Below, one piece after another: positions 7,711-23,708 of a DNA stretch of 23,708 nucleotides (positions within the stretch are counted from its first letter, which is position 1; each line of letters begins with the position of its first letter). The notes below the pieces were generated by a model, which was given only the letters and a program-made list of their open reading frames with translations, was not told the origin of the DNA and ran no database searches. The stretch is from a virus. Location: positions 1 to 23,708 of the IMG/VR virus record IMGVR_UViG_3300012036_000025. One strand, written 5' to 3'. The translations under genes and the position numbers were made by a program.

Positions 7711-7711
7711 T

Positions 7712-9502
7712 ATGGCAGACCAGAACAAAGCATGGGGTTTTCCGATCCAATGGGCCAGGTCCTACGGGGAAGAGATCAGGTTCCGCACGGAGATCATCAC
7801 CAGTCGGAACGGCAAAGAGCAACGGATCGCCCAGCGGGCTAAGCCGCGCCTTGCCTACGACTTCGAGAGCTTCCTGAATTTCAAGGACTTTCAGAAGGCG
7901 GCGCGGCTCCTGGCCGAAAACCAAGGCAGGGAGATCGCGGTCCCCCATCCTCGGCGGCGAGCGGAACTCACGGCCAAAACCGTTCGGGATGTGACAACCA
8001 CGCGCGCCGTGAGCTTCACGATAGATGACTCCGGCTCGATGGGCGTCGACGGCAAGATCAACACGATGAAGACGGCCATGAACGCGGTCTTCGATGAACT
8101 GAGTCTGGCGCTCACGGACGGCCGCCTCTCGCGCCTCGATCTCCAGGTGTGCGGCTGGGGCGACCTCGCCACACAACAGACCTATCCGAACGCGAGCCCT
8201 GCGGACATCGAACTGGCGCGGACCTACATCAACGGACTGGCGGCGACCAGCGGAGGCACGAACTTCAACGCCGCCGCCCAGCAAGCCGCGACCTTCTTCG
8301 ACACGACCCTCGCCACCAGCTTTGCTCGGCGATGCTGGTTCTTCGTCACCGACGGCCAGCCAACAGGGGGCACCCTGGGCTCGGCGCTTACCACGTCTTC
8401 GGACCTTCGGGATCGTAGCAGCGGGGACTTCAATCTGACCGACGGGACGGATGTGGACATCTACGGGATCAACATCCAGGACGCCTCCACAGGCGCTACG
8501 GGCTCCCTGGACAACACGCCGGAGGATGGGGTGCCAGTGGTGGACGCCCTGGACCCAGACGCCTTGCTCTACGCCCTCCTGTCCGGCGTGTTCGGCCAGG
8601 TGATCGAGATCGACGGCACCCAGGACTGGATGCAACCGAACACTCCTGCCTTCCTGGAGAACGACACCGCGCGGGAACTGGTCAACATCACCCGCGCCAC
8701 GGGCAATGTGATCTACACCGACGGCGCGCTCTTGAACACGTTCGACGCGGGCACCAAGGTCTACGGCGCGGTCTACGGGACGTTCTCCAACGACTCCTCC
8801 TTGCGGGCGGCGACCACTCGTGTCGGCCTGTCGCGCGTGGAGTTCGATGCGAACGTCCTGGGCACCTATCACGAGGACTGGTCTACCGCTCCTGCGGACA
8901 CCTTGAACGGCCTGGAGCTTCTTCGTATCCCGCACCAGTGGGCCACGGATTTCACCATGACCTTCGAGCAACCGTTCGAGGGGCGCGACATGAACCGAGG
9001 CCCCACGGAACGCTATTTCCCCGTGGACTTCACGACACGGATCATGTCCGTCCGGCACGTCATCCGAAACGAGGACCACATGAGCCGAGTCATCGGTCTC
9101 TTCTACCGGAGCCGTGGCAAACAGAAACCGTTCTACTGCCCGACCTTCATTGACGAATGGCGGCCTGTCGGCAACCTGCCCAGCGTCTCCCAGACGATGA
9201 CGATCCCTGGCCGTGAGTTCTACGACCAGTTCAACGGGAGCGCGATGTATCGCTACTTCCAGGTGGTCACGCCAGCCTTCACCTACATCCGTGGGATCAC
9301 GTCGATGACGGTTGACGGCGCGGGGAACACCCAGATTACTCTCGACTCCATCTGGTCCACGGACATCGACTTTGACGACATCCAGTCGATCTCCTGGGTG
9401 GTGAAGTGTCGGTTCGAGACAGACACGCTCTCCCTGGAATGGTTGACAGACGGGGTGGCGGAGACGACTATGAAAATTCGAACCCTGGAGGACGTTGCAT
9501 GA
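7712..9502 (+). CDS. Distal tail-like minor tail protein with inserted VWA domain
   Basis: This 596-residue protein directly follows the tape measure, the place of the distal tail/M-like protein that joins tube to tip. Residues 1-90 look like an ordinary minor tail N-terminus ('TEIITSRNGKEQRIAQRAKPR'). Residues about 96-295 are a von Willebrand A domain: 'FTIDDSGSMG' gives DxSxS (D105, S107, S109), 'SGGTNF' gives T183 and 'FVTDGQPTGG' gives D214, a complete MIDAS metal site. Residues about 300-596 return to tail-protein sequence ('IPHQWATDFTMTFEQPFEGR', 'RYFPVDFTTRIMSVRHVIRN'). The start at 7712 lies one base after the upstream stop, and the stop overlaps the next gene (ATGA, 9499-9502). VWA domains with intact MIDAS usually bind protein partners through Mg2+ or similar ions, so an adhesion role is inferred. 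A close paralogue of the domain lies in the J-like protein. Confidence 0.82.
   Translation: MADQNKAWGFPIQWARSYGEEIRFRTEIITSRNGKEQRIAQRAKPRLAYDFESFLNFKDFQKAARLLAENQGREIAVPHPRRRAELTAKTVRDVTTTRAVSFTIDDSGSMGVDGKINTMKTAMNAVFDELSLALTDGRLSRLDLQVCGWGDLATQQTYPNASPADIELARTYINGLAATSGGTNFNAAAQQAATFFDTTLATSFARRCWFFVTDGQPTGGTLGSALTTSSDLRDRSSGDFNLTDGTDVDIYGINIQDASTGATGSLDNTPEDGVPVVDALDPDALLYALLSGVFGQVIEIDGTQDWMQPNTPAFLENDTARELVNITRATGNVIYTDGALLNTFDAGTKVYGAVYGTFSNDSSLRAATTRVGLSRVEFDANVLGTYHEDWSTAPADTLNGLELLRIPHQWATDFTMTFEQPFEGRDMNRGPTERYFPVDFTTRIMSVRHVIRNEDHMSRVIGLFYRSRGKQKPFYCPTFIDEWRPVGNLPSVSQTMTIPGREFYDQFNGSAMYRYFQVVTPAFTYIRGITSMTVDGAGNTQITLDSIWSTDIDFDDIQSISWVVKCRFETDTLSLEWLTDGVAETTMKIRTLEDVA
8000..8599 (+). 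repeat. VWA domain coding region, copy 1 (paralogue of 11294-11896)
   Basis: This part of the distal tail-like gene encodes a VWA domain clearly homologous to that in the J-like gene. The two share 'TIDDSGSMG', 'NTMKTAMN', 'TYPNA', 'ATSGGT', 'TDGQPTGG' and 'SSGDFN', with about half of residues identical by eye. Some DNA blocks are exactly shared: 17 bases at 8027-8043 and 11324-11340, and 19 bases at 8058-8076 and 11355-11373. The flanking protein sequences are unrelated, so this is a duplicated or twice-acquired domain, not a gene duplication. Confidence 0.85.
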
Positions 9503-10359
9503 CCTACGAGAACTACGAGAGTAGTCTCGATGAGGGACTCCAGGCTTCCCTTTTCTTGATCCAGTATGGCTCCGAGGATGCCAACTACTTCGCCTACACG
9601 GACATAGGTGTCCCCGTGACTTTCGACGGTGTGGAATACGCGCCAACAGTCATCGGTCGCGAGAAGATCGAGTCCAGCGGGGGCCTGGATAACAAGACCC
9701 TGGAGATCGACATCACGCCGTCGGCCTCTGTGGTCAAGTTCTACCAGAACCGCCAACCATCCCAGGTGGTGACGATCACGATCCGCCAGGGCCATGTGGA
9801 CGATCCAGCGAACGATTTCGTAGTCGTGTGGACGGGGCGGATCATCGGCATCGAGCAAAAGAGCCGCTATGCGAAGATCAGCGCGGAGCCTGTCGCCACG
9901 TCGATGAAGCGGCCAGGTCTCCGTCGGCACTATCAGTATGGGTGCCCCTGGGCGCTCTACTCGGATGACTGTGGGGCCAACCGCGCAGCGGGCTCTGTGG
10001 TCGCCGCAGTCTTCACCGTGGGCTTGAACGTGATCGAGTTCACCCCAGGCTGGGAGGGTGCGAAGCCCGCAGGAAAGTTTGCTGGGGGATACATCCAGTG
10101 GGCGGACGCGGACGACAACTCCCTCCAGACACGAACGATCCTGAGTGTGCAACTTGGGGCGGGGGCCGACGGTCGGGATCGACTGGCGCTTAACGGTTCG
10201 ACCGACGGCCTGGAAGAACTGGCCGTCATGACTCTCTTCGTAGGGTGCAACCACGGCATGAGCGATTGTGCCGGACTGCACAACAACATCCAGAACTTCG
10301 GTGGCCAACCTTGGATTCCCCAAGAGAACCCCGTCGGCTTTGTGAATAGGTTCTATTGA
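9499..10359 (+). CDS. Four-cysteine tail hub protein (DUF2163/BR0599-like, lambda gpL-like)
   Basis: This 286-residue protein resembles the DUF2163/phage BR0599 family, whose gene transfer agent member is a hub protein under the tail tube and which parallels lambda gpL. The C-terminal half has exactly four cysteines in two pairs: C149 and C158 ('YGCPWALYSDDCGAN'), then C250 and C257 ('VGCNHGMSDCAGL'), followed by 'NFGGQPWIPQENP'. Lambda gpL binds an iron-sulfur cluster through conserved cysteines, and these four are the natural candidates here. The N-terminal half ('VTFDGVEYAPTVIGREKIE', 'IRQGHVDDPANDFVVVWTG') is beta-rich. I chose the ATG at 9499, which overlaps the upstream stop in ATGA; the upstream in-frame start at 9406 would extend it into an unlikely Arg/Gly-rich leader lying wholly inside the previous gene. 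Confidence 0.85.
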   Translation: MTYENYESSLDEGLQASLFLIQYGSEDANYFAYTDIGVPVTFDGVEYAPTVIGREKIESSGGLDNKTLEIDITPSASVVKFYQNRQPSQVVTITIRQGHVDDPANDFVVVWTGRIIGIEQKSRYAKISAEPVATSMKRPGLRRHYQYGCPWALYSDDCGANRAAGSVVAAVFTVGLNVIEFTPGWEGAKPAGKFAGGYIQWADADDNSLQTRTILSVQLGAGADGRDRLALNGSTDGLEELAVMTLFVGCNHGMSDCAGLHNNIQNFGGQPWIPQENPVGFVNRFY

Positions 10360-10825: not shown

Positions 10826-13699
10826 ATGGGTAAGGGCGGCGGTTCACCGAAGCAAAGAGTCACCGAATACAACATGAGCATCCACTACGGCATCTGTCAG
10901 GGGCCAGTGGATACTCTGTCGCGTATTCGCGTCAATGAGAAGGTGGCTTGGCTCGGCGCACGGCGCTCGAACGGGGACTTTCGGATCGACAACAAAGGGC
11001 TCTTCGGGGGCATCAAGAAAGAGGGCGGTGTCCAGGGCCAGGTCTATTGGCGCAAGGGGGACTTCTCCCAGACGCTACCGGAGAAACTGGCCCAGAAGCT
11101 CGGACTTACCTCGGCGACCGCGCCCGGGATGCGGGGGATCGCCCACGCCTTCTTCACCGATAACTCCGTGTCATCGCAACCAGGTTTCTACTGGTCCGCG
11201 AACCAGCCTTTCATCGCGCCCCTGGACTTCCTGGTCACGCGGATTGCGGACTCCTGGAACCCAGACCAAGCCCTGATCGCGGGCATCCCGCCCTTCCCTC
11301 TCGCGGCCAGCCTCACGATTGACGACTCCGGCTCGATGGGTGACGACGGCAAGGTCAACACGATGAAGACGGCGATGAACCTCGCTCTGGATCGTATCCG
11401 AGGGGCCATCTCTTTCAACGATCTAAAGATCGACATCCACATCGCGAAGTGGGGGGACAGTGGGGCGGTCTCGGAGCGAACGTATCCGAACGCCACGGCG
11501 GCGAACATCAACAGCGCCAAGAGCTTCATCAACGGCTTCAACGCGACCTCTGGGGGCACGGACTTCAATGAGGCGGCCACACGGGCCGATACCTTCATGC
11601 GATCCACCCTCGGCAAAGACCTGGGCGCGCGCGTGTGGCTCTTCCTCACAGACGGGCAACCCACAGGGGGCTCTCTGGCGGCGGCAACAGCTACGGCCGC
11701 AGACATGTTGAGTCCGTCTTCCGGCGACTTCAACTCGGCGGCGGGCACGGCTGTCGGCGCTTACGGGGTCAACATCCAAGACCTCGACATCAACGCGACG
11801 GCGGCCCTGGACAACACGGGGATCGACGGGATTCCTGTGATCGCGCAAGACGATCCCGCAGGTCTTTTGAACGTGATCCAGCGCGCGATCTTCGGCGGTT
11901 CGAACCCCGACGTGAACCCTGCCCACATCATCTACGAGTGCCTTACGAACACGAAGTATGGCATGGGCGCGCCGATCAGTCAGATTGACGACACGGCGTT
12001 CCGTGCTGCGGCCGAAACCCTCTTCTTCGAAGGCTTCGGTCTCTCGATGATCTGGGTCGAGCAAACCGAGATCGAGAACTTCGTCCAAGAGGTCCTGGAC
12101 CATATCGAGGCCAACCTCTACGTCGATCCCGCGACGGGCAAGTTCGTCCTCAAGCTCATCCGTAACGACTATGACGAAGCCACCTTGCCTGTCTTCGATG
12201 AGAGCAACAGCGTCGTCACGTCCTACTCGCGGCGCTCCCCTGCGGAGATCATTAACGAGATCAACGTCACCTGGACAAACCCAGATAACGAGAAGGAAGA
12301 GGTCGTCACGATTCAGGACCTCGGCGGGATCGTCCAGTCCAACGGCCAGATCATCTCGGACAACCGGAACTATTATGGTGTCCGCCGCAAGGACCTGGCC
12401 TGGGCCATCGCGCAGCGAGACATCTCGGCGGCAACGGCACGTCTTGCCACGGTGCAGATGGACGTGAACCGTCAAGCGTATAACCTAGCCCCAGGGGCGG
12501 TCTTCAAGCTGACCAGCACCGAGCACGGCGCGACCGATGAGGTCATGCGCGTGGTCAAGGTGGACTACGGCAAGCCTGGTGACTCCACAGTCCAGGTCAA
12601 CGCCACCCAGGACATTTTCAGCTTCGAGCGACCTGTCTACGAAATCCCACCAGATGGGGAGTTCGACGGCGGCGGCCAGGAGCCCGAACTGTTCGACACG
12701 ACCCTCGCCTTCACCTTGCCGTATTCCCTCACGGGCTACTTCGTGACCGCGACCTCCCTCCAGACAGCGGCGTATCCCGACGTGTGGGTGGGTGTCCTCG
12801 CCAGCACGACGAACACGGACGCCATCGAAGCCGAGTTCGTGGGGCCTGTGCTCGATCCCGCAGGTAACGTGATCCAGGAGCCCCTGGGCACCCGTAGCGT
12901 GGTCTCTCGCGGCTTGATGCCCCAGGAGATGGTGCAAGAGGCCGAGACCATCTTCCCCGGCTTCTCTGACCTTACCGTGGGCTCTGGGCCTACCCAGGGC
13001 GGGTTCGGCCTTATCGCGGACCCAGGGACGCCAGAGGAAGAAGCCGAGCTTGTCATGTTCCGCACCTTCGACGGCACGAACTGGACCATCGCGCGGGGCA
13101 TCCTCGACACGGTGCCGAGGGCATGGCCTTCGGGGACTCGAGTCCACTTCTTCGGGGTGGACACGAGCTTCGTGGACCAGGATGTCAGATCGGCGATGGA
13201 GACCCTGACCTACAAGGTCTTGATGCGGACAAGCCTCGGCCAGTTCAATGAGACCAGCGCGCCGGACATCAACTACACCACGAACGAACGGCCGCACCAA
13301 CCCTCGCGCCCAGCGAACGTAGAGATCGAGGGCGTGGCCTTCGCCGACGTGGACGCTTCTACAGGGGGTGGCGACATCACCGTCACCTGGTCGAACCGGA
13401 ACCGGATCACAGAGGACTCCCAGGTTATGGCCTGGGACGATCCAGGGATCACGCCGGAGGTCGGCCAGACGGTCAAGATCACGATCCGAGACGCCAGCAC
13501 GAACTTGGTGGAGACCGAGATCACGGGGATCACGGGGGAGACCTACGACATCCCAAGGGCTTCCTTTGGATCACTCTCTCGTGCTATCGTTATCGTGACC
13601 GCAGAAAGGGATGGCTTCGAGTCCTTCCAGGGAATTGAGCAATTCATCACACTAGCAGCGGGCTACGGCTTCGGCTACGGCCTGTCTTATGGAGGGTAA
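10826..13699 (+). CDS. J-like central tail tip protein with inserted VWA domain
   Basis: This 957-residue protein fits the lambda gpJ/phage-tail-3 family that forms the end of the tail and contacts the receptor. The N-terminus ('SIHYGICQGPVDTLSRIRVNEKVAW') and the stretch after residue 360 ('NPAHIIYECLTNTKYGMG', 'LSMIWVEQTEIENFVQEVLD', 'NYYGVRRKDLAWAIAQRD') are typical. Between them, residues about 157-357 form a VWA domain with a complete MIDAS: 'LTIDDSGSMG' (D166, S168, S170), 'SGGTDF' (T245) and 'FLTDGQPTGG' (D276). Uninserted relatives would run directly from 'RIADSWNPDQALI' into 'NPAHIIYEC'. The C-terminus has a fibronectin-like strand region ('PSRPANVEIEG', 'GDITVTWSNRNRITEDSQ') and ends in a Gly/Tyr-rich tail ('GYGFGYGLSYGG'). 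The ATG follows AAGGGGA by a usable spacing. Confidence 0.87.
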   Translation: MGKGGGSPKQRVTEYNMSIHYGICQGPVDTLSRIRVNEKVAWLGARRSNGDFRIDNKGLFGGIKKEGGVQGQVYWRKGDFSQTLPEKLAQKLGLTSATAPGMRGIAHAFFTDNSVSSQPGFYWSANQPFIAPLDFLVTRIADSWNPDQALIAGIPPFPLAASLTIDDSGSMGDDGKVNTMKTAMNLALDRIRGAISFNDLKIDIHIAKWGDSGAVSERTYPNATAANINSAKSFINGFNATSGGTDFNEAATRADTFMRSTLGKDLGARVWLFLTDGQPTGGSLAAATATAADMLSPSSGDFNSAAGTAVGAYGVNIQDLDINATAALDNTGIDGIPVIAQDDPAGLLNVIQRAIFGGSNPDVNPAHIIYECLTNTKYGMGAPISQIDDTAFRAAAETLFFEGFGLSMIWVEQTEIENFVQEVLDHIEANLYVDPATGKFVLKLIRNDYDEATLPVFDESNSVVTSYSRRSPAEIINEINVTWTNPDNEKEEVVTIQDLGGIVQSNGQIISDNRNYYGVRRKDLAWAIAQRDISAATARLATVQMDVNRQAYNLAPGAVFKLTSTEHGATDEVMRVVKVDYGKPGDSTVQVNATQDIFSFERPVYEIPPDGEFDGGGQEPELFDTTLAFTLPYSLTGYFVTATSLQTAAYPDVWVGVLASTTNTDAIEAEFVGPVLDPAGNVIQEPLGTRSVVSRGLMPQEMVQEAETIFPGFSDLTVGSGPTQGGFGLIADPGTPEEEAELVMFRTFDGTNWTIARGILDTVPRAWPSGTRVHFFGVDTSFVDQDVRSAMETLTYKVLMRTSLGQFNETSAPDINYTTNERPHQPSRPANVEIEGVAFADVDASTGGGDITVTWSNRNRITEDSQVMAWDDPGITPEVGQTVKITIRDASTNLVETEITGITGETYDIPRASFGSLSRAIVIVTAERDGFESFQGIEQFITLAAGYGFGYGLSYGG
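11294..11896 (+). repeat. VWA domain coding region, copy 2 (paralogue of 8000-8599)
   Basis: This is the second VWA copy, inside the J-like protein. Both copies begin just before the first strand of the VWA fold and end at a matching 'FG' ('GVFG' in copy 1, 'AIFG' in copy 2), which puts the inserted unit at about 200 residues in each host protein. Differences are spread along the length, so the two have diverged for some time or were acquired from different relatives. Confidence 0.85.
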
Positions 13700-13701
13700 C
13701 T

Positions 13702-16359
13702 ATGCCTGATAGATCACTTCCAGGACTAGGGCTTTCGGGCTATTGGGACCTGGGCTCCGACACCTGGAAACCAGGCATGGACACCAACTTGCGGCTCCTG
13801 TCCGCAGTAGCAGGGGCGAGGGTGACTTCGCGCACGGCCGCGCTCCCAGATTCTCCTGGCGCTCTTTCGATCCAGATCGCGCCTCTTGGGGATGCCCAGG
13901 AGAACAAGCTCGCCATCTGGGACGGAGAGTCCGGCGCGGAAGCGTGGGTCTACCTGACCGCGCAACCTGGGTGGCACTTCTACGTCATTGACGAAGGCAT
14001 CAACATCCAATGGACGGGCCTTGCCTGGGTCGAGTTCGCGGGAGCCGGAGGCGGCACCAGCGGCGGTGGAGCAACCAGCGGCCCCCAGATCATCCTGACC
14101 GCAGAGCAATCCGTCGGGCAGCTTATCGACACGACCACGGAGACCGTGGATTTCGACACGGTGACAGAGGACTCTAACTCCCTGTGGAACGCCGTAGACG
14201 CCACGATCCGTATGCCCGCAGATGCGGCTGGCCGGACTGTCGTCATCGTCGCCCAGACGAAGCACTCGGCCGACGGCGCGGGCGCACTCGAAACGGTTTT
14301 GGAAAGATCGGAAGACAGCGGTTCGACGTGGGATGTGATCGGTTCGTCCGGCACGTCCGAGGACTACTTCGGCATCTCCAGGCTTACGGCTCTCGTGGTC
14401 CTCCTGGGCAATGAATGGTATCGCGTCCGGCAAACGACTGTCGCGACGAAAACCACGTCCGGCGACAACCAGACGGCTCTCAGCTTGACCACCATCGGCG
14501 ACGGCCAGGTCGGGCGGATCATCAAGCGAACGCAAACCGTTCCGCTCTTGAACCCGCAATTCAACGCGGGCGATTTCACAAGCTGGACGAACTCGACGGG
14601 CTCCGGCACCCTCAAAATCTACATTCCACCGGACAAGGAATATGATCACGTCCTCCATCCCAGCGGCTTCAACTACATGGGCTTGGCCGGATCGACTGGT
14701 GGTCCGTGGTTCATCGAACAAAAGATCACGATCCCCTCCGAGTCGGGCACTTTGACGGTCCAGTGGGACCAGCACACCCGTCTCGTGGACGATCAGATGC
14801 GACTGGAGATCGACTGGTTGGACCTCGGCGATAGTGTGCTTAGCACCTACCTCGGCCCGTCTTACGTCAACTCGGCGAACCAGCTTTGGGAGAGGTTCGG
14901 AGATACCGTAGGTTCGATTCCTGCGGGAGCCGTGGCCGCGATGGTCAGGTTCCGCACTGTCGTCACGGGCGGCAGCCAACAGATCAACATCACGAACTTT
15001 TCTTGTCAGGTGGGCATCCTGGGCGTGTCAGGCATGTTGCCAGGGTCGGTCTACGCCTACCTCCCAGAACTGGCGACGAACCAGGACAAGGTGCTCACGG
15101 TCAACGCTACGGGCGACGGCGTGGAGTGGGGCTTCGTTCCTCTCCGTATCCAGGCGGGCGGGATCGACCAGGCCAAGCCGCAGGGCATCGAGTTCCTGGG
15201 CACGGACTTCTCGGCGACCCTTGACGGGGACACCGTGCAGATCGAGTTCCAGGGCAAGGTTGCCGTTGACGGCGCGGGCGGCGAAGTCACCGCAGGGCTT
15301 ACCAGGCTGACCTTCACAGGGGCGGGCGTGGGCCTGTCGTCACCTATTGCCGGAGAGATCGACATCACGATCCCTGGGCCTGGGGAAGCGGTCCCACCCG
15401 CTACCGCGATTGAAGAGATCGACGGCTTCGAGGTTGTGCGCTCGAACCTGGGAGGCTTCGACCGAGGCCGCCCTCTGGTATGGGACGGCCCAGCGAACGC
15501 TTTCGTTCCTTTGCCTCCGGACCTGGGGACAATCGCTTATGGGGGCGGGAGTCAAGTTCTTGTCGATCAGGATATGACAGGGCTCTCCGACTTCACGCTC
15601 ACGGAAGCGGACCACAATCTCTCCAATTTCGATGAGCTTCACTTCTTCCTTTTCCAGACGGACATCCGCGCGGACATCTTCATCTCCAGCGACGGGGGCT
15701 CCACAGTCGAGACCGTCAACCGAGCATATTCTGGTGATGGCGGAACTTCCGAGGGCACGGAGGGAGACGATGAGTTCTACCTCGGCGGATGGGATGCGGT
15801 GGAAGCGGGGCAACTTGGTTACGGCGTCATGACGTTTGCTTCGAACCCAGACTCCTACACGTTCTGGAACATGTTCGGTGCAACCTCTGGAGTAAGATCG
15901 GAACGCAAAGAGTTCTCGCACACCATAGCGAGATCGACCATCAACCATATCCTGGTTGACGGGAGTTCGGGGAACTTCACGGCGGGGCGCTTGATGGTCA
16001 TCGGCGTCAAGAAGGGAACGCAACCTGTGGACCTGTCGGCGCGCGTCGAGAACGGAGCGGCCTTCACGTCGGACCAGGAACTCTTGTTCCAGGAGACGAT
16101 GGGCGTTCGGTTCCTTCCAGGGGTTCGAGGCAGGGTCCGCGTCGATCCTGCGGCCAATGCCGATGCCGAGTTCCAGCTTACCTCCGGCGACGGGACGGTG
16201 ATCGGGACGGCCACGGTGCTCGCCTCAGAGACCGAGGCGGACTTCGTTTTGGTCTCTTCGGCCACTGTCTCGGACGCGGTGAAGGTGCTGGCCCCTACCA
16301 TTGTGGATAGCGCGATCCAGAGCGCCTACATCGCTCTTCGGGGGGAGGCGAACCGATGA
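13702..16359 (+). CDS. DUF2793-like tail fibre / surface protein
   Basis: This 885-residue protein probably forms a fibre or side spike. Residues 1-115 resemble the DUF2793 domain of phage fibres ('SGYWDLGSDTWKPGMDTNL', 'NKLAIWDGESGAEAWVYL', 'GWHFYVIDEGINIQWTGLAW'). A Gly/Thr-rich linker ('GGGTSGGGATSG') follows. The middle holds a probable beta-sandwich ('LNPQFNAGDFTSWT' to about residue 440, like carbohydrate-binding galactose-binding folds), then repeated short beta modules, and the C-terminus has the recurring fibre ending 'GVRGRVRVDPAANADAEFQL' ... 'KVLAPTIVDSAIQSAYIALR'. GGAGG at 13691-13695 and ATG at 13702 support the start. Its stop overlaps the protease gene start (ATGA, 16356-16359), so the two are likely made in matched amounts. 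Receptor target is unknown. Confidence 0.72.
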   Translation: MPDRSLPGLGLSGYWDLGSDTWKPGMDTNLRLLSAVAGARVTSRTAALPDSPGALSIQIAPLGDAQENKLAIWDGESGAEAWVYLTAQPGWHFYVIDEGINIQWTGLAWVEFAGAGGGTSGGGATSGPQIILTAEQSVGQLIDTTTETVDFDTVTEDSNSLWNAVDATIRMPADAAGRTVVIVAQTKHSADGAGALETVLERSEDSGSTWDVIGSSGTSEDYFGISRLTALVVLLGNEWYRVRQTTVATKTTSGDNQTALSLTTIGDGQVGRIIKRTQTVPLLNPQFNAGDFTSWTNSTGSGTLKIYIPPDKEYDHVLHPSGFNYMGLAGSTGGPWFIEQKITIPSESGTLTVQWDQHTRLVDDQMRLEIDWLDLGDSVLSTYLGPSYVNSANQLWERFGDTVGSIPAGAVAAMVRFRTVVTGGSQQINITNFSCQVGILGVSGMLPGSVYAYLPELATNQDKVLTVNATGDGVEWGFVPLRIQAGGIDQAKPQGIEFLGTDFSATLDGDTVQIEFQGKVAVDGAGGEVTAGLTRLTFTGAGVGLSSPIAGEIDITIPGPGEAVPPATAIEEIDGFEVVRSNLGGFDRGRPLVWDGPANAFVPLPPDLGTIAYGGGSQVLVDQDMTGLSDFTLTEADHNLSNFDELHFFLFQTDIRADIFISSDGGSTVETVNRAYSGDGGTSEGTEGDDEFYLGGWDAVEAGQLGYGVMTFASNPDSYTFWNMFGATSGVRSERKEFSHTIARSTINHILVDGSSGNFTAGRLMVIGVKKGTQPVDLSARVENGAAFTSDQELLFQETMGVRFLPGVRGRVRVDPAANADAEFQLTSGDGTVIGTATVLASETEADFVLVSSATVSDAVKVLAPTIVDSAIQSAYIALRGEANR

Positions 16360-18911
16360 CCACGATTATCGTCAGCGTTCGGAGAGTCGAAGACCTGGAG
16401 CCCACGAAAGCGGCGCTCGCGGAGTTCGGCGACATCCAGAACTTCACCGCCTTGAAGAAGGTCTTCATCCTCGACATCGGGGGTGGGGACGAAGCGATGG
16501 CGATGTTGGCTCTCTCTGCCCTCCCAGGGGTGACTGGAGCGATCAACGGCGAGCAAACCATGAAGCCGGGGGCCTTGGAAACCGAGTTCATCTTCGAGGG
16601 CAGGGACGCGAAGGAAAAGGCGGGGGCTCTTCGATTGAAGGCCACGATGGACACGGACAAGCCGACGTTCAACAACTGGTGGGAGCAACCCAACTTCTTC
16701 AAATGGCGAAAGGATTCAGAACGGCTCGGCCAGGATGTCATGATCGCCATTGTGGACGGGGGTATCCGCACAGGGCACCCAGAGTTCGCCAAGAACCCCT
16801 CCAGGATCACTCGTGTTCACAACGCCTACACGGCCGACTTCGGGGCGTCGAACCACGGGACCGCCTGTGCGAGTTTTGCCGCTGGAGACACGATTGGGAT
16901 CGCGCCGCTGGCGGAACTTCTGGACGTGAAAATCTTCAACTCGGCGGGCGATCCAGTAACCGTCACAACTATCGTAGCAGGGCTCGACGCCCTTATGGCC
17001 TGGGTCACAACTCCAGGGAACAACCCAGACGACAAATTCGTCATCGTGAACATCTCTCTGGGCTCTGGCGGCGTAGGGCTCGCCAACAGCTACGGCACGA
17101 TCATCCAGGAGATGGAAGATATAGGGATGATCCCCATCATTGCTGCGGGGAACGATGGCAGCGATCTCGGCACTACGTTCGATGCTTGGCCCGCCGAAAA
17201 CTCGGACTACGCCATCGGGGCCATCCAGCTTGACGGTAGGCGCGCCGAGTTCTCCAACTACGGCGGGCGCGTGAAGTTCTACGGGTTCGGATCGAGGGTG
17301 GTCGGGGCAGGGTATCCGGGCGCAAACGGCTATGATGTCGTCAACGGCACGAGCTTTGCGACTCCCTACTTCTGTGGGTGTCTCGCAACATGGTTGTCCG
17401 GCAAGTATCGGCCAACGAACGCGGCGGCCATCAAGATTCTCATGACGGACTACGAGGCGTTCTGCCAAGAAGGCATTTTCGGGAACTCGGTCAGAGGTTT
17501 CGCGGGGTCGGACACGCTACCTGGCACAGTCATCGGGCGGGCCTCCTACTTCCCTGTGCTCCCTGGCAACGTGATCGTGCCGAACACGTCGATCATCACG
17601 AGCTTCGGGACCGCAGACCAGGGCGTCCTCGCCTGGAAGACCAGGTTGTTTGCCCAGGTGGGCGGCGCTCCTGTGGGATCGGGCGGCATCGTGGCTTCAA
17701 CTGTCGCGTTCTTCGAAGGCCCGTTCTTTGCGGACGCGGATGAAGGGCCGTGGCTCGATCCTCTCTACGTCCCCACAGGATGGTCCATCGGCAATGACAG
17801 GGTGAAGCACGATGGAGGGTCCACCGTGGCGAACAAATTCGTGGTCAGCAAATCCAACCTCATCGCGAAAGAGTATTGGGAGGTCCAGGCCAAAAGCGCG
17901 ACCACCGGACTTTCTGTTGGCGTGACGCTGGCCTCGAACCTGGCGAACTACGACGAAGCGACGACGGGCATCGGGGACGCTGGGTTCGAATGGTTCGCAG
18001 ATGGGTCTCTGACCGTGGACGGCGTGGCCCAGACGGCGATCTCCACCTACGCGGACGGCGACATCCTCATGCTTTCCTACGACGTTTCCACCGGAGACTT
18101 CTGGGTCGGGAAGAATGGAATCTGGGAGGACGATCCAGAGGTCGATCCGGCCACAGGCTCGATGACTTCGGGGGCTTCGAGGGCCGCTATCGGCATGGCT
18201 GACGATGGGTGTCGAGCCCAGATGCTCGGTGCGGGCAGGTTCCATGCCTATAACGACACGACCGATTACACAGGGTTTGACATCGGAGCCGTAACTCAGT
18301 GGGTCTTGGACACCGCGACCTTTAACTATGCAGGGCACGTTTACGCGGAAGGCGACACCAGGCTCACGAACGCAACTGGAGGGACCAACTACAGAGTGTT
18401 TGTTCCTACAATTCGGTCGATGCCAGACAGCTATGCTGGCAAGATTTATTGGGAGTTCCACTGTAACACGCTGGGAGGATCGTTCTACACCGGCTATCAT
18501 TCTGTGTTGTCCGCCGAAGCGAGGACGGCACTGCTCGCGAACATAGATGCTAACGTGAACCCCGTCGGGTTGGGCTCTTTGGCTCGAAGGGGGACCGGAA
18601 CTTTGTGGGACGGTAACTTAGGTTTTGGTTCCGGCACAAAAGATGTCATTAGCCTCACCCCCTTCGGAGCCAATGACGTTTTGATGATGTGCTTCGACCC
18701 ATCGACCGCAGAGATATGGACAGGCGTCAACGGAGTCTGGGACGACGATCCAGATACCGATCCGCCGACCTACACGGGGCCTGTGGCCTCGGCCGAGTTC
18801 TACATCTGTTTGCAAGGCCGCAATGCCGACCAGGGGGGTCGCCTGGTTTCCCTGTCAAACGAGATGACATATACCCTGCCAACGGGGGCCACCCCCCTCG
18901 GCTTGATTTAA
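16356..18911 (+). CDS. Virion-associated subtilisin-like protease fused to two SPRY-type lectin-like repeats
   Basis: This 851-residue protein carries a peptidase S8 (subtilase) domain, unusual in a phage tail region. Residues about 1-75 resemble an inhibitor I9-type propeptide. The catalytic triad is visible as D134 ('IAIVDGGIRTGHPEF'), H167 ('NHGTACAS') and S333 ('NGTSFATPYFCG'), with N266 ('IIAAGNDGS') for the oxyanion hole. The spacings (33, 99 and 67) are close to those of subtilisin (32, 91, 66), so an active enzyme is expected. Residues about 495-640 and 650-830 are two tandem SPRY/concanavalin-like repeats, each with 'YWE' and a 'W(V/T)G(K/V)NG(I/V)W(E/D)DDP' motif (about 506 and 583; about 698 and 788). 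I infer degradation of a host surface protein after glycan or protein binding, or maturation of a neighbouring virion protein. GGGGGAGG precedes the start. Confidence 0.9.
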   Translation: MTTIIVSVRRVEDLEPTKAALAEFGDIQNFTALKKVFILDIGGGDEAMAMLALSALPGVTGAINGEQTMKPGALETEFIFEGRDAKEKAGALRLKATMDTDKPTFNNWWEQPNFFKWRKDSERLGQDVMIAIVDGGIRTGHPEFAKNPSRITRVHNAYTADFGASNHGTACASFAAGDTIGIAPLAELLDVKIFNSAGDPVTVTTIVAGLDALMAWVTTPGNNPDDKFVIVNISLGSGGVGLANSYGTIIQEMEDIGMIPIIAAGNDGSDLGTTFDAWPAENSDYAIGAIQLDGRRAEFSNYGGRVKFYGFGSRVVGAGYPGANGYDVVNGTSFATPYFCGCLATWLSGKYRPTNAAAIKILMTDYEAFCQEGIFGNSVRGFAGSDTLPGTVIGRASYFPVLPGNVIVPNTSIITSFGTADQGVLAWKTRLFAQVGGAPVGSGGIVASTVAFFEGPFFADADEGPWLDPLYVPTGWSIGNDRVKHDGGSTVANKFVVSKSNLIAKEYWEVQAKSATTGLSVGVTLASNLANYDEATTGIGDAGFEWFADGSLTVDGVAQTAISTYADGDILMLSYDVSTGDFWVGKNGIWEDDPEVDPATGSMTSGASRAAIGMADDGCRAQMLGAGRFHAYNDTTDYTGFDIGAVTQWVLDTATFNYAGHVYAEGDTRLTNATGGTNYRVFVPTIRSMPDSYAGKIYWEFHCNTLGGSFYTGYHSVLSAEARTALLANIDANVNPVGLGSLARRGTGTLWDGNLGFGSGTKDVISLTPFGANDVLMMCFDPSTAEIWTGVNGVWDDDPDTDPPTYTGPVASAEFYICLQGRNADQGGRLVSLSNEMTYTLPTGATPLGLI

Positions 18912-18926
18912 GAAGAGGACCACAAC

Positions 18927-19886
18927 ATGACCGACTATCTTCTCACAAACGATCCCTTCGACCTGGGGGGCACCTTCGATGACACGGCGGGCAAGTTCGA
19001 CGCGGACTTCGCCGATCACGCGATCTTCCTGGACAACAACGTGGCGCACGGCGTCAAGCTCCCTGAGACTGATTCCATCTGGATCAGCTTCGATTGCTGG
19101 ATCGGGGACACTGGCGCGGACGAAGACGGCTACATGTGGCGGTGCTACTCCCAGGACAACGCGCTCCTGGGCTACTTCGATATGGTGAACGGCACCTACA
19201 ATTGGATCGCAACAACGGGAGGGACCCCGCAATCCTTCTCTGTCGGCATCCCGAAGAACCAGGTGGCCCGCATAGACATCAATTTCGTGACGAACATCGC
19301 GGCCAACCCGAACGACCACCAGAGCACAGTCTACTTGAACGGCGCTATCGCCGCGCAGACTTCGGTCAATGGCGGTGGGGGCGGCGCACCCTCGCGGTTC
19401 GAGTTCGGGGGGAGTGACGCCTTCCAGGTGTCCGATCAAGGGTATTGGATTTCGAACGTCCGTGTCACCGATGTCAACCCCATCGGGACCAAGTTCAAGG
19501 TCCTGGGACCTACCGGAGCCGGAAACTATTCGGACTTCATCGGCGGGCATGTCCAGCTTGGCGACTTCCTGGCGACCACGGTCGCGTATGCCACGGCAGG
19601 AGGCGACCGCGTGTCGTGCTCGATCACCCCAGGCACGGAACCTCCAGGCACGTTGACGAAGGTCGCTCTGTCCGCGACGACACGATCCAGCGGAGCGGGG
19701 GCAAACCCCTCCCAGATCGGCTTGTTCGCACGGATCGGGGGCACGGACTACGACGGCGCACTGGAGACCCCAGGAGCCGCGATCTTGCCCTTGGTAGAGA
19801 CATACCTCACAAATCCTGATACTTTGGCCGAATGGGCCTGGAGTGACCTGGCCGGAGTCGAAGTGGGTCTCCGTGCCGTAACATAA
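18927..19886 (+). CDS. LamG/concanavalin-like minor structural protein, likely receptor-binding
   Basis: This 319-residue protein follows the protease gene after a 15-base gap with an AGAAGAGGA ribosome site. Residues about 10-190 look like a beta jelly-roll of the concanavalin/LamG type: 'ISFDCWIGDTGADEDGYMW', 'VARIDINFVTN', 'QSTVYLNGAIAAQT' and 'YWISNVRVTDVNP' follow the strand order of LamG-like domains. Such domains bind sugars or proteins in phage surface proteins. The C-terminal 120 residues ('GPTGAGNYSDFIGG', 'SQIGLFARIGGTDYDGALET', 'NPDTLAEWAWSDLAGVEVGL') recall phage structural proteins that ornament tail fibres. It has no signal peptide or membrane segment. Its place at the end of the tail genes and before the lysis cassette suggests an accessory virion protein. 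Function is inferred from fold only. Confidence 0.62.
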   Translation: MTDYLLTNDPFDLGGTFDDTAGKFDADFADHAIFLDNNVAHGVKLPETDSIWISFDCWIGDTGADEDGYMWRCYSQDNALLGYFDMVNGTYNWIATTGGTPQSFSVGIPKNQVARIDINFVTNIAANPNDHQSTVYLNGAIAAQTSVNGGGGGAPSRFEFGGSDAFQVSDQGYWISNVRVTDVNPIGTKFKVLGPTGAGNYSDFIGGHVQLGDFLATTVAYATAGGDRVSCSITPGTEPPGTLTKVALSATTRSSGAGANPSQIGLFARIGGTDYDGALETPGAAILPLVETYLTNPDTLAEWAWSDLAGVEVGLRAVT

Positions 19887-19898
19887 CTGGAGACTGCG

Positions 19899-21089
19899 AT
19901 GAACACGGAGCTATTCATCGGCGCGGCAAAGCGACTGGACGACATCGACATCCCACGGATCGGATCGCGGATCGGTGTAGGCGAGGACGAAATCCACGCC
20001 TTCATGGAAGTGGAGGCCGGAAGCTCCGGCTTCGACTCCAAGAACCGCCCCAAGATGCTTTTCGAGCCTCACATCTTCTACCGGAACCTCTCTGGTCAGG
20101 AGCGCCTGGACGCCATCGAAGCGGGCCTCGCCTACCGTCGCTGGGGGGAAGAAGCGTATCCCTCTGACTCCTACCCACGGCTCGTAGAGGCCATCGAGAT
20201 CAATGAGGACGCGGCGCTCATGGCGGCCTCCTGGGGCCTGGGTCAAATCCTCGGCACGAACTACAGGTCCGCAGGATACAACACGATCCAGGACATGATC
20301 CAGTCGTTCATGGACGACGAAGAGAACCACTTGAACGCGATGGTCAGCTTCATCATTGCCAACGGCATTGACGACGACATCCGCGAGCACCGCTGGGAGA
20401 TTGTGGCCCGCATCTACAACGGCCCAGCCTACGCGAAGCACGGCTACCACACACGGCTTGCCGCAGCTTACCGGAAGTGGGCACGGATCGCGGACACGCC
20501 CTGGGAAGGGGCTCCCGATCCCGTGGACCAGGCTCTCGACTATCCCACGGTGCGGATGGGCTCGAAAGGCTGGGTGGTCGAACATCTCCAGGAAGAACTC
20601 AAGCGCCTGGGCTATCACCTTGGGGGGATCGACGGGAACTTCGGGACCGCAACGCGCGCCTCGATCCTGGCCTTCCAGGCCGATCACGGTTTGAAGACAG
20701 ACGGCATTGCCGGACCTCGGACCTGGGATGTCATGGAGAACTCGGCTCGGCCGAAACCTGTCGGCGAGAGTCGGGCAACCGCGACCACCGCGACTCTTCG
20801 CGAGAAGGGTTCCCAGACTGTGGCGGATGCTGATCGAGGCGGCATCGGTGCGGGCATCGTGGCGGGCACAGGGGCTCTCGCGGGGGCCGACGTGTTGCTC
20901 GACCAGGCAGAACGCGCCGAGGGTATCCTGGGCCGCGTCCAGGGCGTCCTGGGCAGCTTCGGGGGCATGATGGATACCATGTGGCCTCTGATCTTCATTG
21001 GCGGCGGTGTCGCGGCTCTCTGGTATTTCCAGAAGGTGAAGAAGGATCGCGTCGAGGACCACAAGTCCGGCGCGAACATGAGCCGATGA
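19899..21089 (+). CDS. Endolysin: N-acetylmuramidase with peptidoglycan-binding domain and C-terminal membrane segment
   Basis: This 396-residue enzyme should cut the host cell wall at the end of infection. Residues about 15-195 match the DUF3380 N-acetylmuramidase domain: 'HAFMEVEAGSSGFD' with E37 and E39 as candidate acids, then 'RPKMLFEPHIFYR' and 'SWGLGQILG'. Residues about 215-280 are a peptidoglycan-binding type 1 domain ('RMGSKGWVVEHLQEELKRLG', 'GNFGTATRASILAFQ', 'TDGIAGPRTWDVM'). A Thr/Gly-rich linker leads to a hydrophobic segment at about 362-377 ('WPLIFIGGGVAALWYF') followed by a basic tail. No N-terminal signal is present. The membrane tail is unusual for a Gram-negative phage endolysin and may tether or time the enzyme. 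GGAG upstream supports the start; the stop overlaps the i-spanin start. Confidence 0.87.
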   Translation: MNTELFIGAAKRLDDIDIPRIGSRIGVGEDEIHAFMEVEAGSSGFDSKNRPKMLFEPHIFYRNLSGQERLDAIEAGLAYRRWGEEAYPSDSYPRLVEAIEINEDAALMAASWGLGQILGTNYRSAGYNTIQDMIQSFMDDEENHLNAMVSFIIANGIDDDIREHRWEIVARIYNGPAYAKHGYHTRLAAAYRKWARIADTPWEGAPDPVDQALDYPTVRMGSKGWVVEHLQEELKRLGYHLGGIDGNFGTATRASILAFQADHGLKTDGIAGPRTWDVMENSARPKPVGESRATATTATLREKGSQTVADADRGGIGAGIVAGTGALAGADVLLDQAERAEGILGRVQGVLGSFGGMMDTMWPLIFIGGGVAALWYFQKVKKDRVEDHKSGANMSR

Positions 21090-21661: not shown

Positions 21662-21973
21662 ATGGATTTCGGAACGCTACCACAGTTACTAACCGGATTT
21701 ACGGCGCTCGTTATTGCGTTCGGCTCCGGCCTGAGATGGATGATCTCGTGGTCAGACAAGAGGTTGACCGCAGTCCAGACTCAACTGGAGAAGCAATACT
21801 CCGAACGGTTCGCTATGCTGGAAGAGCGAGTGGACAACCAGGAACGCGAAATTCAACAGAACCGAGAGGACCTTGCACGTTACCTCCGGCACGTTGGAAA
21901 ACTAGAAGGGCTCCTGTCCGCTAATGGTATCGAGCCCCCGCCAATGGAGGTTGGTAGATATGGGTCCAGATGA
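21662..21973 (+). CDS. Small membrane/coiled-coil protein, holin candidate
   Basis: This 103-residue protein has one hydrophobic segment near the N-terminus (about residues 7-30, 'PQLLTGFTALVIAFGSGLRW'), then a charged coiled coil ('SERFAMLEERVDNQEREIQQ'), ending in 'PPPMEVGRYGSR'. It stands 11 bases after the outer spanin, and no other obvious holin gene is seen in the lysis region. A single membrane segment with a soluble tail could make a class III-type holin or pinholin, but known holins in this layout vary, and a structural or antiholin role is equally possible. Base composition from about 21540 onward is less GC-rich than the tail genes, hinting at different origin. Confidence 0.6.
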   Translation: MDFGTLPQLLTGFTALVIAFGSGLRWMISWSDKRLTAVQTQLEKQYSERFAMLEERVDNQEREIQQNREDLARYLRHVGKLEGLLSANGIEPPPMEVGRYGSR

Positions 21974-22535
21974 TCGCGAATCGGTGATGATGAAAAAGCT
22001 CGTAAACCTCATACTGATTTTCGCCTTTCTGGGGTTTGGTACATCCGTCGCCATGCTGGCAAACCAATACATCTCATTCAATAAGCAAGGTATCGAGGCG
22101 CGGTGGTTCCCGCCGACCACGGACTGGACTTTCAGGAATTGGGAGCAAGACGAAGCCGGACACTGGACGGCCGAGGTCTACTACCTCAAGCATCGCTCCG
22201 AGTGCATCTTCGTCTCTGACCAAATTCTCACGGCGACATACGTCAACCCTGTAGGGGACATCGGAGAGTCCGGCATCTTCTTCGTAGGCGATGAGACAGA
22301 GGGCAACACCAGGCCCACGGGGTGGCAGCGCATTGACGACCGCGTGGGGTTCTCCAACGGCAACATAAGCCCAGGGGCGATCCTCCGAGGCACCGTGCTC
22401 CACCAGTGTCACGAGGGGCTTCCCACGGTCTCAGGCTTCACCCAGGTAGTGGTCGGCCAGGACATGCCCTGGCCGGACTTCGTGCAAGATTGGCATGACG
22501 CGGGCAGGATAGGGCTCGCCTCGGACTACCGTTGA
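21960..22535 (+). CDS. Membrane-anchored protein of unknown function, end of the lysis region
   Basis: I do not recognise this 191-residue protein. It has a short N-terminal part with a basic 'MMKKLVNL' before one membrane segment (about residues 12-35, 'LILIFAFLGFGTSVAMLA'), then a soluble, probably periplasmic domain of about 150 residues with tryptophans ('WFPPTTDWTFRNWEQDEAGHW') and a beta pattern, two cysteines ('SECIF', 'HQCHEG') and an acidic C-terminus. I chose the ATG at 21960, which has GGAGG at 21946-21950 and overlaps the upstream gene by 14 bases; starts at 21924 and 21987 are possible. Its position after spanins suggests a lysis-linked or superinfection-exclusion role, but this is only a guess. 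Its stop overlaps the convergent kinase gene. Confidence 0.7.
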   Translation: MGPDDRESVMMKKLVNLILIFAFLGFGTSVAMLANQYISFNKQGIEARWFPPTTDWTFRNWEQDEAGHWTAEVYYLKHRSECIFVSDQILTATYVNPVGDIGESGIFFVGDETEGNTRPTGWQRIDDRVGFSNGNISPGAILRGTVLHQCHEGLPTVSGFTQVVVGQDMPWPDFVQDWHDAGRIGLASDYR

Positions 22536-23035
22536 CGCTCGTGCGACAGCCCCGAGTGGAAGGCTCTGACGTTCCGTTTCAGGTCTTCCAGCGAGCCATT
22601 GTTATCCAGGATCACATCGGCCATCGACGGATCGAGATCGGTGCTTCCGACCTCGCGCGGTAGGTGCTCGGAGCGATCCACCCAGACGACCTTGTGGAAG
22701 ATTCCCTGGCGGCGGCACTCGGCAAGCTCATCGGCCCGCCTCATCCCGACATACATATCGGCGCCGCGCTCGATCATGGTCCTGGCCGTTTTCGCCTTGT
22801 CCGGCGTGTTGTAGGCCGAGATCATCTGCATCCACAGGACGCGGTGGTTCACGCGGTCCTCGAACATCTCGTGGATGCTCCCGTAGACGGCGCACCCCCA
22901 ATTCGGCCAGATCGTCTCCTGGGCACAGAACCACGAGGACGATGAGAACTTGTAGTCGTATTCTTCCTGGAGGATCGTCCCCACGGTGTCCTTGCCGTGG
23001 CGAGCGTCCCCCAGGATCAAGAGCTTGTGTCTCAT
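22526..23035 (-). CDS. Deoxynucleoside monophosphate kinase-like P-loop protein
   Basis: This 169-residue minus-strand protein has a P-loop at its start ('LILGDARHGKDTVG', Walker A with GxxxxGKD), and further 'VLWMQMISAYN', 'MYVGMRRADELAECR' and 'FHKVVWVDRSEHLP', in the style of phage T4 gp1-type dNMP kinases that raise dNMPs to dNDPs. It starts at 23035 (ATG, read in reverse), overlapping the stop of the ThyX gene in ATGA. Coupling with ThyX makes sense: ThyX makes dTMP, the kinase would start its conversion to dTTP. I excluded an upstream in-frame start at 23224 because it lies in ThyX coding sequence and adds an Arg/Pro-rich, non-conserved leader. It converges with and overlaps the last plus-strand gene by ten bases. 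Confidence 0.78.
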   Translation of the reverse strand: MRHKLLILGDARHGKDTVGTILQEEYDYKFSSSSWFCAQETIWPNWGCAVYGSIHEMFEDRVNHRVLWMQMISAYNTPDKAKTARTMIERGADMYVGMRRADELAECRRQGIFHKVVWVDRSEHLPREVGSTDLDPSMADVILDNNGSLEDLKRNVRAFHSGLSHERQR

Positions 23036-23708
23036 GTGGGCGTCTCCAGCTTGGACAGAAGCTCGCCTTGCTCCCGCTTGGACAGGTCGGTCAGGCCCAC
23101 CAGGTACTTGAGGAAGTTCGGGGCGGTCCCTTGCTCGGCCTTCGCGATCAGGGCGTGGAGGACTTCCATCTCCTGGCGCGAGAACCTTTGGGCGCACAGG
23201 GTATAGTCCTCGAAGGCTTCCCACACGTCCGGCACCCAGGCCCGCACGATGTCACAGATGGCGTCGGCGTAGACCCTGATCTCCATCTGGGCGTGAGGGT
23301 CGGCCCGCAGCGATAGGAAGTGCAGGAGGTTGTGGAGATCGACCTTCCAATACCATTGGGTGTAGACGTTGACGGGCAGGTTGATCCGCGCCAGTTCACG
23401 CGCGAGCCCGTAGCCCTCATCGTCGGTCATCTCTTCGTAGCTGTCATAGGCGCGGTTGGAGTCGGCGATCAGGATCGCACGGATTTCCTCGGCCGAGAGA
23501 TCATCGACACCTTCCTCACGGCCTTGCATGTTCACGGTGGACTGTTTCGCGATGTCGCCCACGGCGGGGATGTAGAACTCCCGATCCAGGATCGAGTAGC
23601 GCGCGGAGTATTCGTTCACGTTCGCGGTGCGATGCCGAATCCACTGGCGAGCGACGAAGACGGGCAGCTTCACATGGAGCTTGATCTCGCACATCTCGAA
23701 GGGCGTGG
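23032..23708 (-). CDS. thyX: Flavin-dependent thymidylate synthase ThyX, 5' end missing
   Basis: This minus-strand frame is open to the window edge and is cut there. Before the Met at 23694 it continues as 'TPFEM', a part of the conserved internal 'TPFEH'-like motif of ThyX, so the true start lies outside. The ThyX signature RHRx7S is present ('RHRTANVNEYS', at about 23605-23637), followed by 'SARY', and the C-terminal part has 'DLHNLLHFLSLRADPHAQ' and 'EIRVYADAI'. ThyX makes dTMP from dUMP with FAD, NADPH and methylene-tetrahydrofolate. About 225 residues are visible of a usual 230-300. It is the first gene of an operon with the dNMP kinase and marks the start of a nucleotide-metabolism module. 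Confidence 0.95.
   Translation of the reverse strand, partial: TPFEMCEIKLHVKLPVFVARQWIRHRTANVNEYSARYSILDREFYIPAVGDIAKQSTVNMQGREEGVDDLSAEEIRAILIADSNRAYDSYEEMTDDEGYGLARELARINLPVNVYTQWYWKVDLHNLLHFLSLRADPHAQMEIRVYADAICDIVRAWVPDVWEAFEDYTLCAQRFSRQEMEVLHALIAKAEQGTAPNFLKYLVGLTDLSKREQGELLSKLETPT

Follow-up and report, generated by a model that had tools for sequence, protein, structure and literature searches.

A subtilisin-type protease gene overlapping a tail fibre gene in a siphophage: a candidate tail-tip enzyme

The stretch of DNA analysed here, hereafter the window, is an entire virus record of 23,708 bases, and it carries a gene for a predicted subtilisin-type (proteinase-K-like) serine protease directly behind a tail fibre gene. 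We consider it very probable that this protease is active. Our best reading, favoured with some reserve, is that it is a fibre-coupled, prodomain-controlled protease of the tail tip or virion aimed at a host surface protein. Within this reading, the gene product is likely to be a virion component, and its substrate lies somewhat more probably on the host surface than among the proteins of the phage. The protease gene and its catalytic features are as follows:

16356..18911, plus strand: S8 subtilase gene, 851 residues, from the ATG at 16356 to the stop at 18911 (Pfam PF00082 and PHROG_3677)
16713..17453, plus strand: S8 catalytic domain, residues 120-366 (Pfam, sequence search, model, Foldseek)
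16755..16757, plus strand: codon of catalytic Asp134, motif VDGG
16854..16856, plus strand: codon of catalytic His167, motif HGT
17151..17153, plus strand: codon of oxyanion-hole Asn266, motif AAGN
17352..17354, plus strand: codon of catalytic Ser333, motif GTSFATP

Peptidase_S8 (PF00082), the sole Pfam domain in the ORF, spans residues 125-360 with a score of 80 bits (E=1.8e-22; cut-off 21.8 bits). Residues 120-366 match PHROG_3677, named 'protease' (E=4.6e-35), and the closest solved relative by plain sequence search is proteinase K (E=2.6e-22). Judged on its sequence, the S8 assignment is far above chance. The AlphaFold2 model has the subtilisin alpha/beta fold (Foldseek 1sh7, E=1.2e-17, TM(target) 0.75). 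The initial annotation had described D134, H167, N266 and S333 with a subtilisin-like spacing, and all four residues are present where it placed them, 33/99/67 apart. The equivalent residues of subtilisin BPN' are spaced 32/91/66. The protein thus has the D, H, S order and the oxyanion Asn by which family S8 is recognized. The four residues are invariant among 30 aligned viral S8 proteins; homologs lacking the triad, which the annotation had held to speak against it, were looked for in this alignment, and the homologs keep the triad. Its call of a probably active enzyme agrees with the intact triad and the normal S8 domain, as a prediction of activity.

The gene belongs to a siphophage tail module that has tail completion, terminator, major tail protein and tape measure genes, followed by a DUF2460/VWA protein, and continues with the hub, a Phage-tail_3/VWA protein, the fibre, the subtilase, a 319-residue protein, the endolysin and a spanin-like gene. 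The features surrounding the protease are:

10826..13699, plus strand: Phage-tail_3 / central tail protein with a VWA insertion, 957 residues (Pfam, PHROGs)
13702..16359, plus strand: upstream tail fibre, 885 residues, its N-terminal 100-130 residues common to the fibres of Mallos, V45iii, L039 and L024
16356..16359, plus strand: ATGA overlap, the fibre stop sharing bases with the protease start (read from the sequence)
18927..19886, plus strand: 319-residue protein directly downstream, PHROG_6368, conserved in L024 (59%)
19899..21089, plus strand: endolysin, muramidase with a peptidoglycan-binding domain, where the lysis region begins

The lysis region is close by: in the window a single gene lies between the protease gene and the endolysin, and in Mallos the lysis cassette comes just after the S8 gene. 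The protease could be an accessory to lysis or release, freed late with the endolysin and helping to break the envelope or to free progeny from surface proteins; the lack of a signal peptide, as in a holin-dependent endolysin, would agree with this. However, the S8 gene overlaps the fibre gene and not the lysis genes, the 319-residue gene separates it from the endolysin in the window, and the S8 genes of S-H38 and Atu_ph07 sit among baseplate or fibre genes. We regard such a role in lysis as improbable.

The overlap with the preceding gene is conserved. In all seven loci in which an S8 gene of the window type follows a fibre or tail-like gene (the window, L024, L039, L074, L085, Mallos and V45iii), the S8 start overlaps the upstream stop, the loci being related and so not independent events. 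The overlap is ATGA in six of them and GTGA in V45iii; in L086, an 11-base gap precedes the S8 gene. The fibres share domains at both ends: an N-terminal segment is common to the window, L024, L039, Mallos and V45iii, and a C-terminal domain upstream of S8 is common to L039, Mallos, V45iii and L074. Elanor, which is related to Mallos, lacks both the fibre and the protease at a site with orthologous flanking genes, and because of this joint absence the two genes behave as a cassette. It is possible, and we propose it only tentatively, that a fibre-plus-protease cassette with interchangeable binding domains is lost and gained by siphophages as a unit, its prodomain-controlled subtilisin shaving a host surface protein during adsorption and thereby widening the host range. 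In its study, Mallos, which has the cassette, showed the broadest host range, a single and anecdotal comparison.

The initial annotation had suggested a search for S8 domains beside tail genes in related phages, and such genes were found in L024/L025, L039, Mallos and V45iii. L024/L025 encode a full-length ortholog of 838 residues, 48-49% identical over the protein (63% in the protease domain between the window and L024), in the same gene order of hub, central tail protein, fibre, S8, 319-residue protein and endolysin. L039 shares the tail module and has a triad-intact S8. The protease of Xanthomonas phage Mallos (URA07153.1) and its homolog in Variovorax phage V45iii resemble the window protein in their full triad, in a small signal-less N-terminal domain and in their place directly behind a fibre with a related N-terminus, with a start/stop overlap and in the same tail-module family. 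They differ from it in length (397-400 residues), in having no C-terminal repeats and in an identity of about 29-30% in the S8 domain. L074 and L085 encode triad-intact S8 proteins of 420-430 residues, the former among tail-like genes and the latter with neighbours of no informative family.

The central tail protein has matches in 749 phage records, and those that cover most of it are mainly phages of Stenotrophomonas, Xanthomonas, Bordetella, Pseudomonas and Variovorax. Among the 749, S8 was found only in Mallos (two records) and V45iii. Elanor, QH3 and L004 keep the same tail without S8, which makes the protease an accessory. This bears on the alternative of a morphogenetic protease that would cut phage tail proteins (the fibre, the VWA-bearing proteins or the 319-residue protein) inside the cell to mature the tail. 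The overlap, and with it a probable translational coupling to the fibre, would suit such an enzyme, as would cytoplasmic synthesis with no signal, and in jumbo phages structural peptidases are believed to process proteins of the virion (PMC7824862). Nevertheless, phages with the same tail module and a VWA-region protein do without S8, so it is dispensable for that tail, and a processing enzyme has no need of exchangeable adhesin-type C-termini. Elanor also lacks the coupled fibre, so the enzyme might yet process the fibre specifically. On balance, we consider morphogenesis unlikely, though the strongest of the competing explanations. The suggestion in the initial annotation that the VWA-bearing tail proteins are processed finds little support: QH3, Elanor and others carry the VWA-region tail protein (98% coverage) and no S8, and we set these proteins aside as the substrate. 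For the tail-tip protease that we prefer, a part in adsorption accounts better than one in assembling the common tail for the accessory distribution, the changing adhesin-type C-termini and the coupling with the fibre.

Other S8 proteins, most of them larger, were found in L086/L088, in the cyanophages P-HM1, P-HM2, MED4-213, S-BM3 and S-H38 and in the jumbo phages Atu_ph07 (of Agrobacterium) and Phosso (of Sinorhizobium). In the four whose annotation was consulted (P-HM2, S-H38, Atu_ph07 and Phosso), the S8 genes have neck, baseplate, fibre or minor tail genes nearby. A motif scan located the Asp, His and Ser motifs in P-HM2, Atu_ph07 and Phosso, and the His and Ser motifs, without the Asp motif, in S-H38. 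PHROG_3677, which includes P-HM1, P-HM2 and MED4-213, is also matched by the S8 proteins of L039, L074 and L086; its profile is 1125 long, and the window protein covers positions 589-827 only. The cyanophage proteins share the S8 domain with the window protein and differ from it in length (550-1827 residues) and in their C-termini. Atu_ph07 gp329 and the Phosso S8 are likewise signal-less, close to tail-fibre or minor tail genes and with the triad kept, but they have about 1250-1290 residues, belong to jumbo phages and are distant in the tree. Among the matches in a viral structure library are proteins that bear the names baseplate wedge and proximal tail fibre. The view that subtilases are rare in tail clusters thus applies to the phage group of the window, whereas among cyanophages and jumbo phages S8 turns up repeatedly in tail or baseplate regions. 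A close-homolog scan of viral contigs with the window protein alone found none. Queries from an early alignment or from Mallos only recovered no homologs, whereas a broader S8 alignment succeeded. The DNA motif AAYGGNACNWSNTTYGCNACNCC gave nine matches, and the three ORFs recovered with the peptide were dismissed as chance.

Upstream of the catalytic domain, the protein has two further parts:

16356..16565, plus strand: N-terminal domain, residues 1-70, I9-like predicted fold (AlphaFold2 model, Foldseek)
16566..16712, plus strand: linker, residues 71-119, partly conserved in the ortholog (GALRLKAT...FN.WW.QP.FFKWR)

No signal peptide is evident in the window protein, whose N-terminus begins in the model directly with the first strand of the N-terminal domain. 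This N-terminus is not strongly hydrophobic: its highest-scoring hydrophobic stretch reaches 1.27, other tail-group S8 proteins score 0.28-1.02 and secreted-type S8 proteins from other viral contigs 1.06-2.25, overlapping ranges that are not decisive by themselves. Residues 1-69 are modelled as beta-alpha-beta-beta-alpha-beta (strands 2-8, 25-29, 36-41 and 59-64; helices 11-24 and 46-54), with block pLDDT values of about 60-90. With Foldseek, the 375-residue model can be aligned from end to end to unprocessed pro-subtilisin E (3whi; E=2.3e-15 over 371 columns) and also with the Thermococcus pro-subtilisin 3afg; the relative placement of N-terminal domain and protease is not reproduced in the pro-subtilisin alignment (rmsd 19). 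By sequence, residues 1-125 have no Pfam match, I9 included, and a profile of little depth, built from the window and L024 N-terminal domains, had no detectable match to cellular I9; the corresponding domains of P-HM2, Atu_ph07, Phosso, S-H38, L026 and L086, taken as a set, matched cellular I9 with an hhalign probability of 93.6. The I9-like propeptide of the initial annotation therefore holds as a predicted fold, alignable with pro-subtilisin E, and has no I9 match in the sequence of the window protein. The N-terminal domain is the fastest-evolving part of the protein, with 31% identity to the L024 ortholog; set against the much higher identity of the protease domain, this fits a catalytic domain with a fast-evolving propeptide. 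The linker is 55% identical, with residues 83-119 well conserved, and pLDDT is low over residues 70-116. As the linker is conserved and modelled at low confidence, the site of maturation and the length lost are uncertain. An S8 protein with the same kind of N-terminal domain is encoded at L026:7701-9134, beside genes for a tRNA-His guanylyltransferase and a UDP-glucose dehydrogenase and not in an obvious tail cluster.

Downstream of the catalytic domain lie:

17454..17780, plus strand: region 367-475 between protease and repeats, without known family, 52% identical to the ortholog
17781..18275, plus strand: repeat 1, SPRY-like and diverged, 51% identical to the ortholog
18315..18893, plus strand: repeat 2, SPRY-like and diverged, 41% identical to the ortholog

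The tandem SPRY-type repeats that had been proposed here are real as repeats: the two match each other (BLASTP, E=5e-7) and share the pattern YWE ... GD.LM ... W.G.NG.W. Their SPRY nature is less clear. SPRY (PF00622) has no Pfam match in the window protein and appears below threshold in repeat 2 of the L024 ortholog (19.2 bits against a cut-off of 26.3, E=0.0014). A profile of the repeats found no match in the PDB, and the structure model of the C-terminus (pLDDT 36) is unusable for judging a B30.2/SPRY beta-sandwich. We therefore call the repeats SPRY-like, a weak lead and not a family membership. A tblastn search of phage records with the window C-terminus gave no match, and repeat-based scans of viral contigs recovered only the ortholog contigs L024/L025. 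In L039, the S8 C-terminus holds a clear pair of F5/8 type C matches (E=7.6e-15), and the adjacent fibre has a stretch related to this region (28% identity, E=2e-4). The L039 fibre (4000-7776) and S8 (7773-9851) share this adhesin-type stretch (F5/8C / phrog_10304, phrog_17517), which looks like a swap of binding domains between neighbouring genes. As predicted from these domains, the S8 C-terminus is an exchangeable module: absent in Mallos and V45iii, F5/8C in L039 and SPRY-like in the window. The proposed binding by the repeats agrees with a C-terminus that resembles a binding module and varies between relatives, and is weakened by the sub-threshold SPRY score; the faint SPRY similarity and the F5/8C domains of L039 hint at a binding role.

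The ancestry of the catalytic domain was examined in a maximum-likelihood tree of 45 domains, from which P-HM2 was left out as its Ser motif did not fit the trimming pattern. The S8 proteins from a tail context group together (two label changes; 0 of 500 shuffles were as low), and nine of them, including that of the window, form one supported clade (98/87). The tree thus supports a phage lineage (PHROG_3677) that unites the window type with cyanophage-type contigs. Bacillus-phage S8 genes, which are intracellular-subtilisin-like and not in evident tail clusters, fall elsewhere in the tree and were set aside. Subtilases are common in bacteria, and some viral contigs do contain S8 genes of a secreted, host-like kind that have signal peptides, so that one could imagine a host protease gene, newly acquired or in decay, with no role in the phage. 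We give this very little credence: the triad is intact in distant homologs, L024 keeps the orthologous gene order and the full-length protein, the tree has a phage-specific clade, and no close homolog of the window S8 came to light when bacterial genomes were searched with targeted patterns.

For a protease of the tail tip, the following sequence of events can be proposed. The enzyme would be made together with the fibre by translational coupling, and its N-terminal domain would hold it inactive in the cytoplasm. It would then be built into or onto the fibre or tail tip, mature by self-cleavage and, during adsorption, cut a host surface protein, for example one of the outer membrane, an S-layer or a pilus, while the C-terminal repeats keep it at the target. 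The only pointer to presence in the virion comes from Atu_ph07, in which the S8 gene is gp329. According to its authors, three gene clusters, among them CDS 284-329, encode most of the Atu_ph07 virion proteins that ESI-MS/MS detected (PMC6102473). The S8 gene would carry the boundary number of this cluster, assuming that RefSeq numbering matches that of the paper.

Proteinase K and subtilisin with its I9 propeptide (MEROPS S8) resemble the window protein in the catalytic domain, by sequence and fold, and in the N-terminal domain, by predicted fold. Unlike it, they carry signal peptides for secretion and lack a phage-tail adhesin region. Most of the phage tail enzymes that have been described break down sugars or peptidoglycan. 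Tail depolymerases, such as tailspike polysaccharide lyases and hydrolases, act on polysaccharide and typically have beta-helix folds; they would share with the window protease the proposed mode of a tail-tip enzyme clearing a surface barrier in adsorption, but have no homology to it. Tail-region S8 proteins are already in databases as 'protease' (PHROG_3677 and the annotations of Mallos, S-H38 and Atu_ph07). What is new here is the signal-less prodomain-like domain, the start/stop overlap and its conservation, the behaviour of fibre and protease as a cassette, and the variant with SPRY-like repeats together with its ortholog. In the part of the literature covered, we found no functional study of phage tail subtilases; a paper on Mesyanzhinovviridae mentions S8 only as a resemblance of an Ig domain (PMC11946847). 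If our reading is correct, a lineage of propeptide-controlled tail-tip subtilisins in proteobacterial and cyanobacterial phages would represent a distinct way through a protein barrier and would point to protein surface structures as obstacles to infection. As the cultivated phages Mallos, V45iii and Atu_ph07 carry such S8 genes, the idea is testable now.

Several other observations concern the rest of the tail module. ORFs 21924-22535 and 22942-23316, downstream of the lysis genes, have no PHROGs or Pfam match. The tape measure (2716-7710) has a phage-lysozyme domain at residues 1130-1230, and the tail thus seems to carry a predicted peptidoglycan-cutting enzyme as well. VWA-type insertions occur in the tail proteins at 7712-9502 and 10826-13699 and are about 50% identical over 199 residues, which suggests a duplication within the module; VWA-type segments are also present in tail proteins of Mallos, V45iii and L024. 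Finally, the contigs L006, L007 and L008 are 97-100% identical to the window at the protein level from the tape measure to the hub (in L006 already from the terminator), and all three end before the fibre and the protease.
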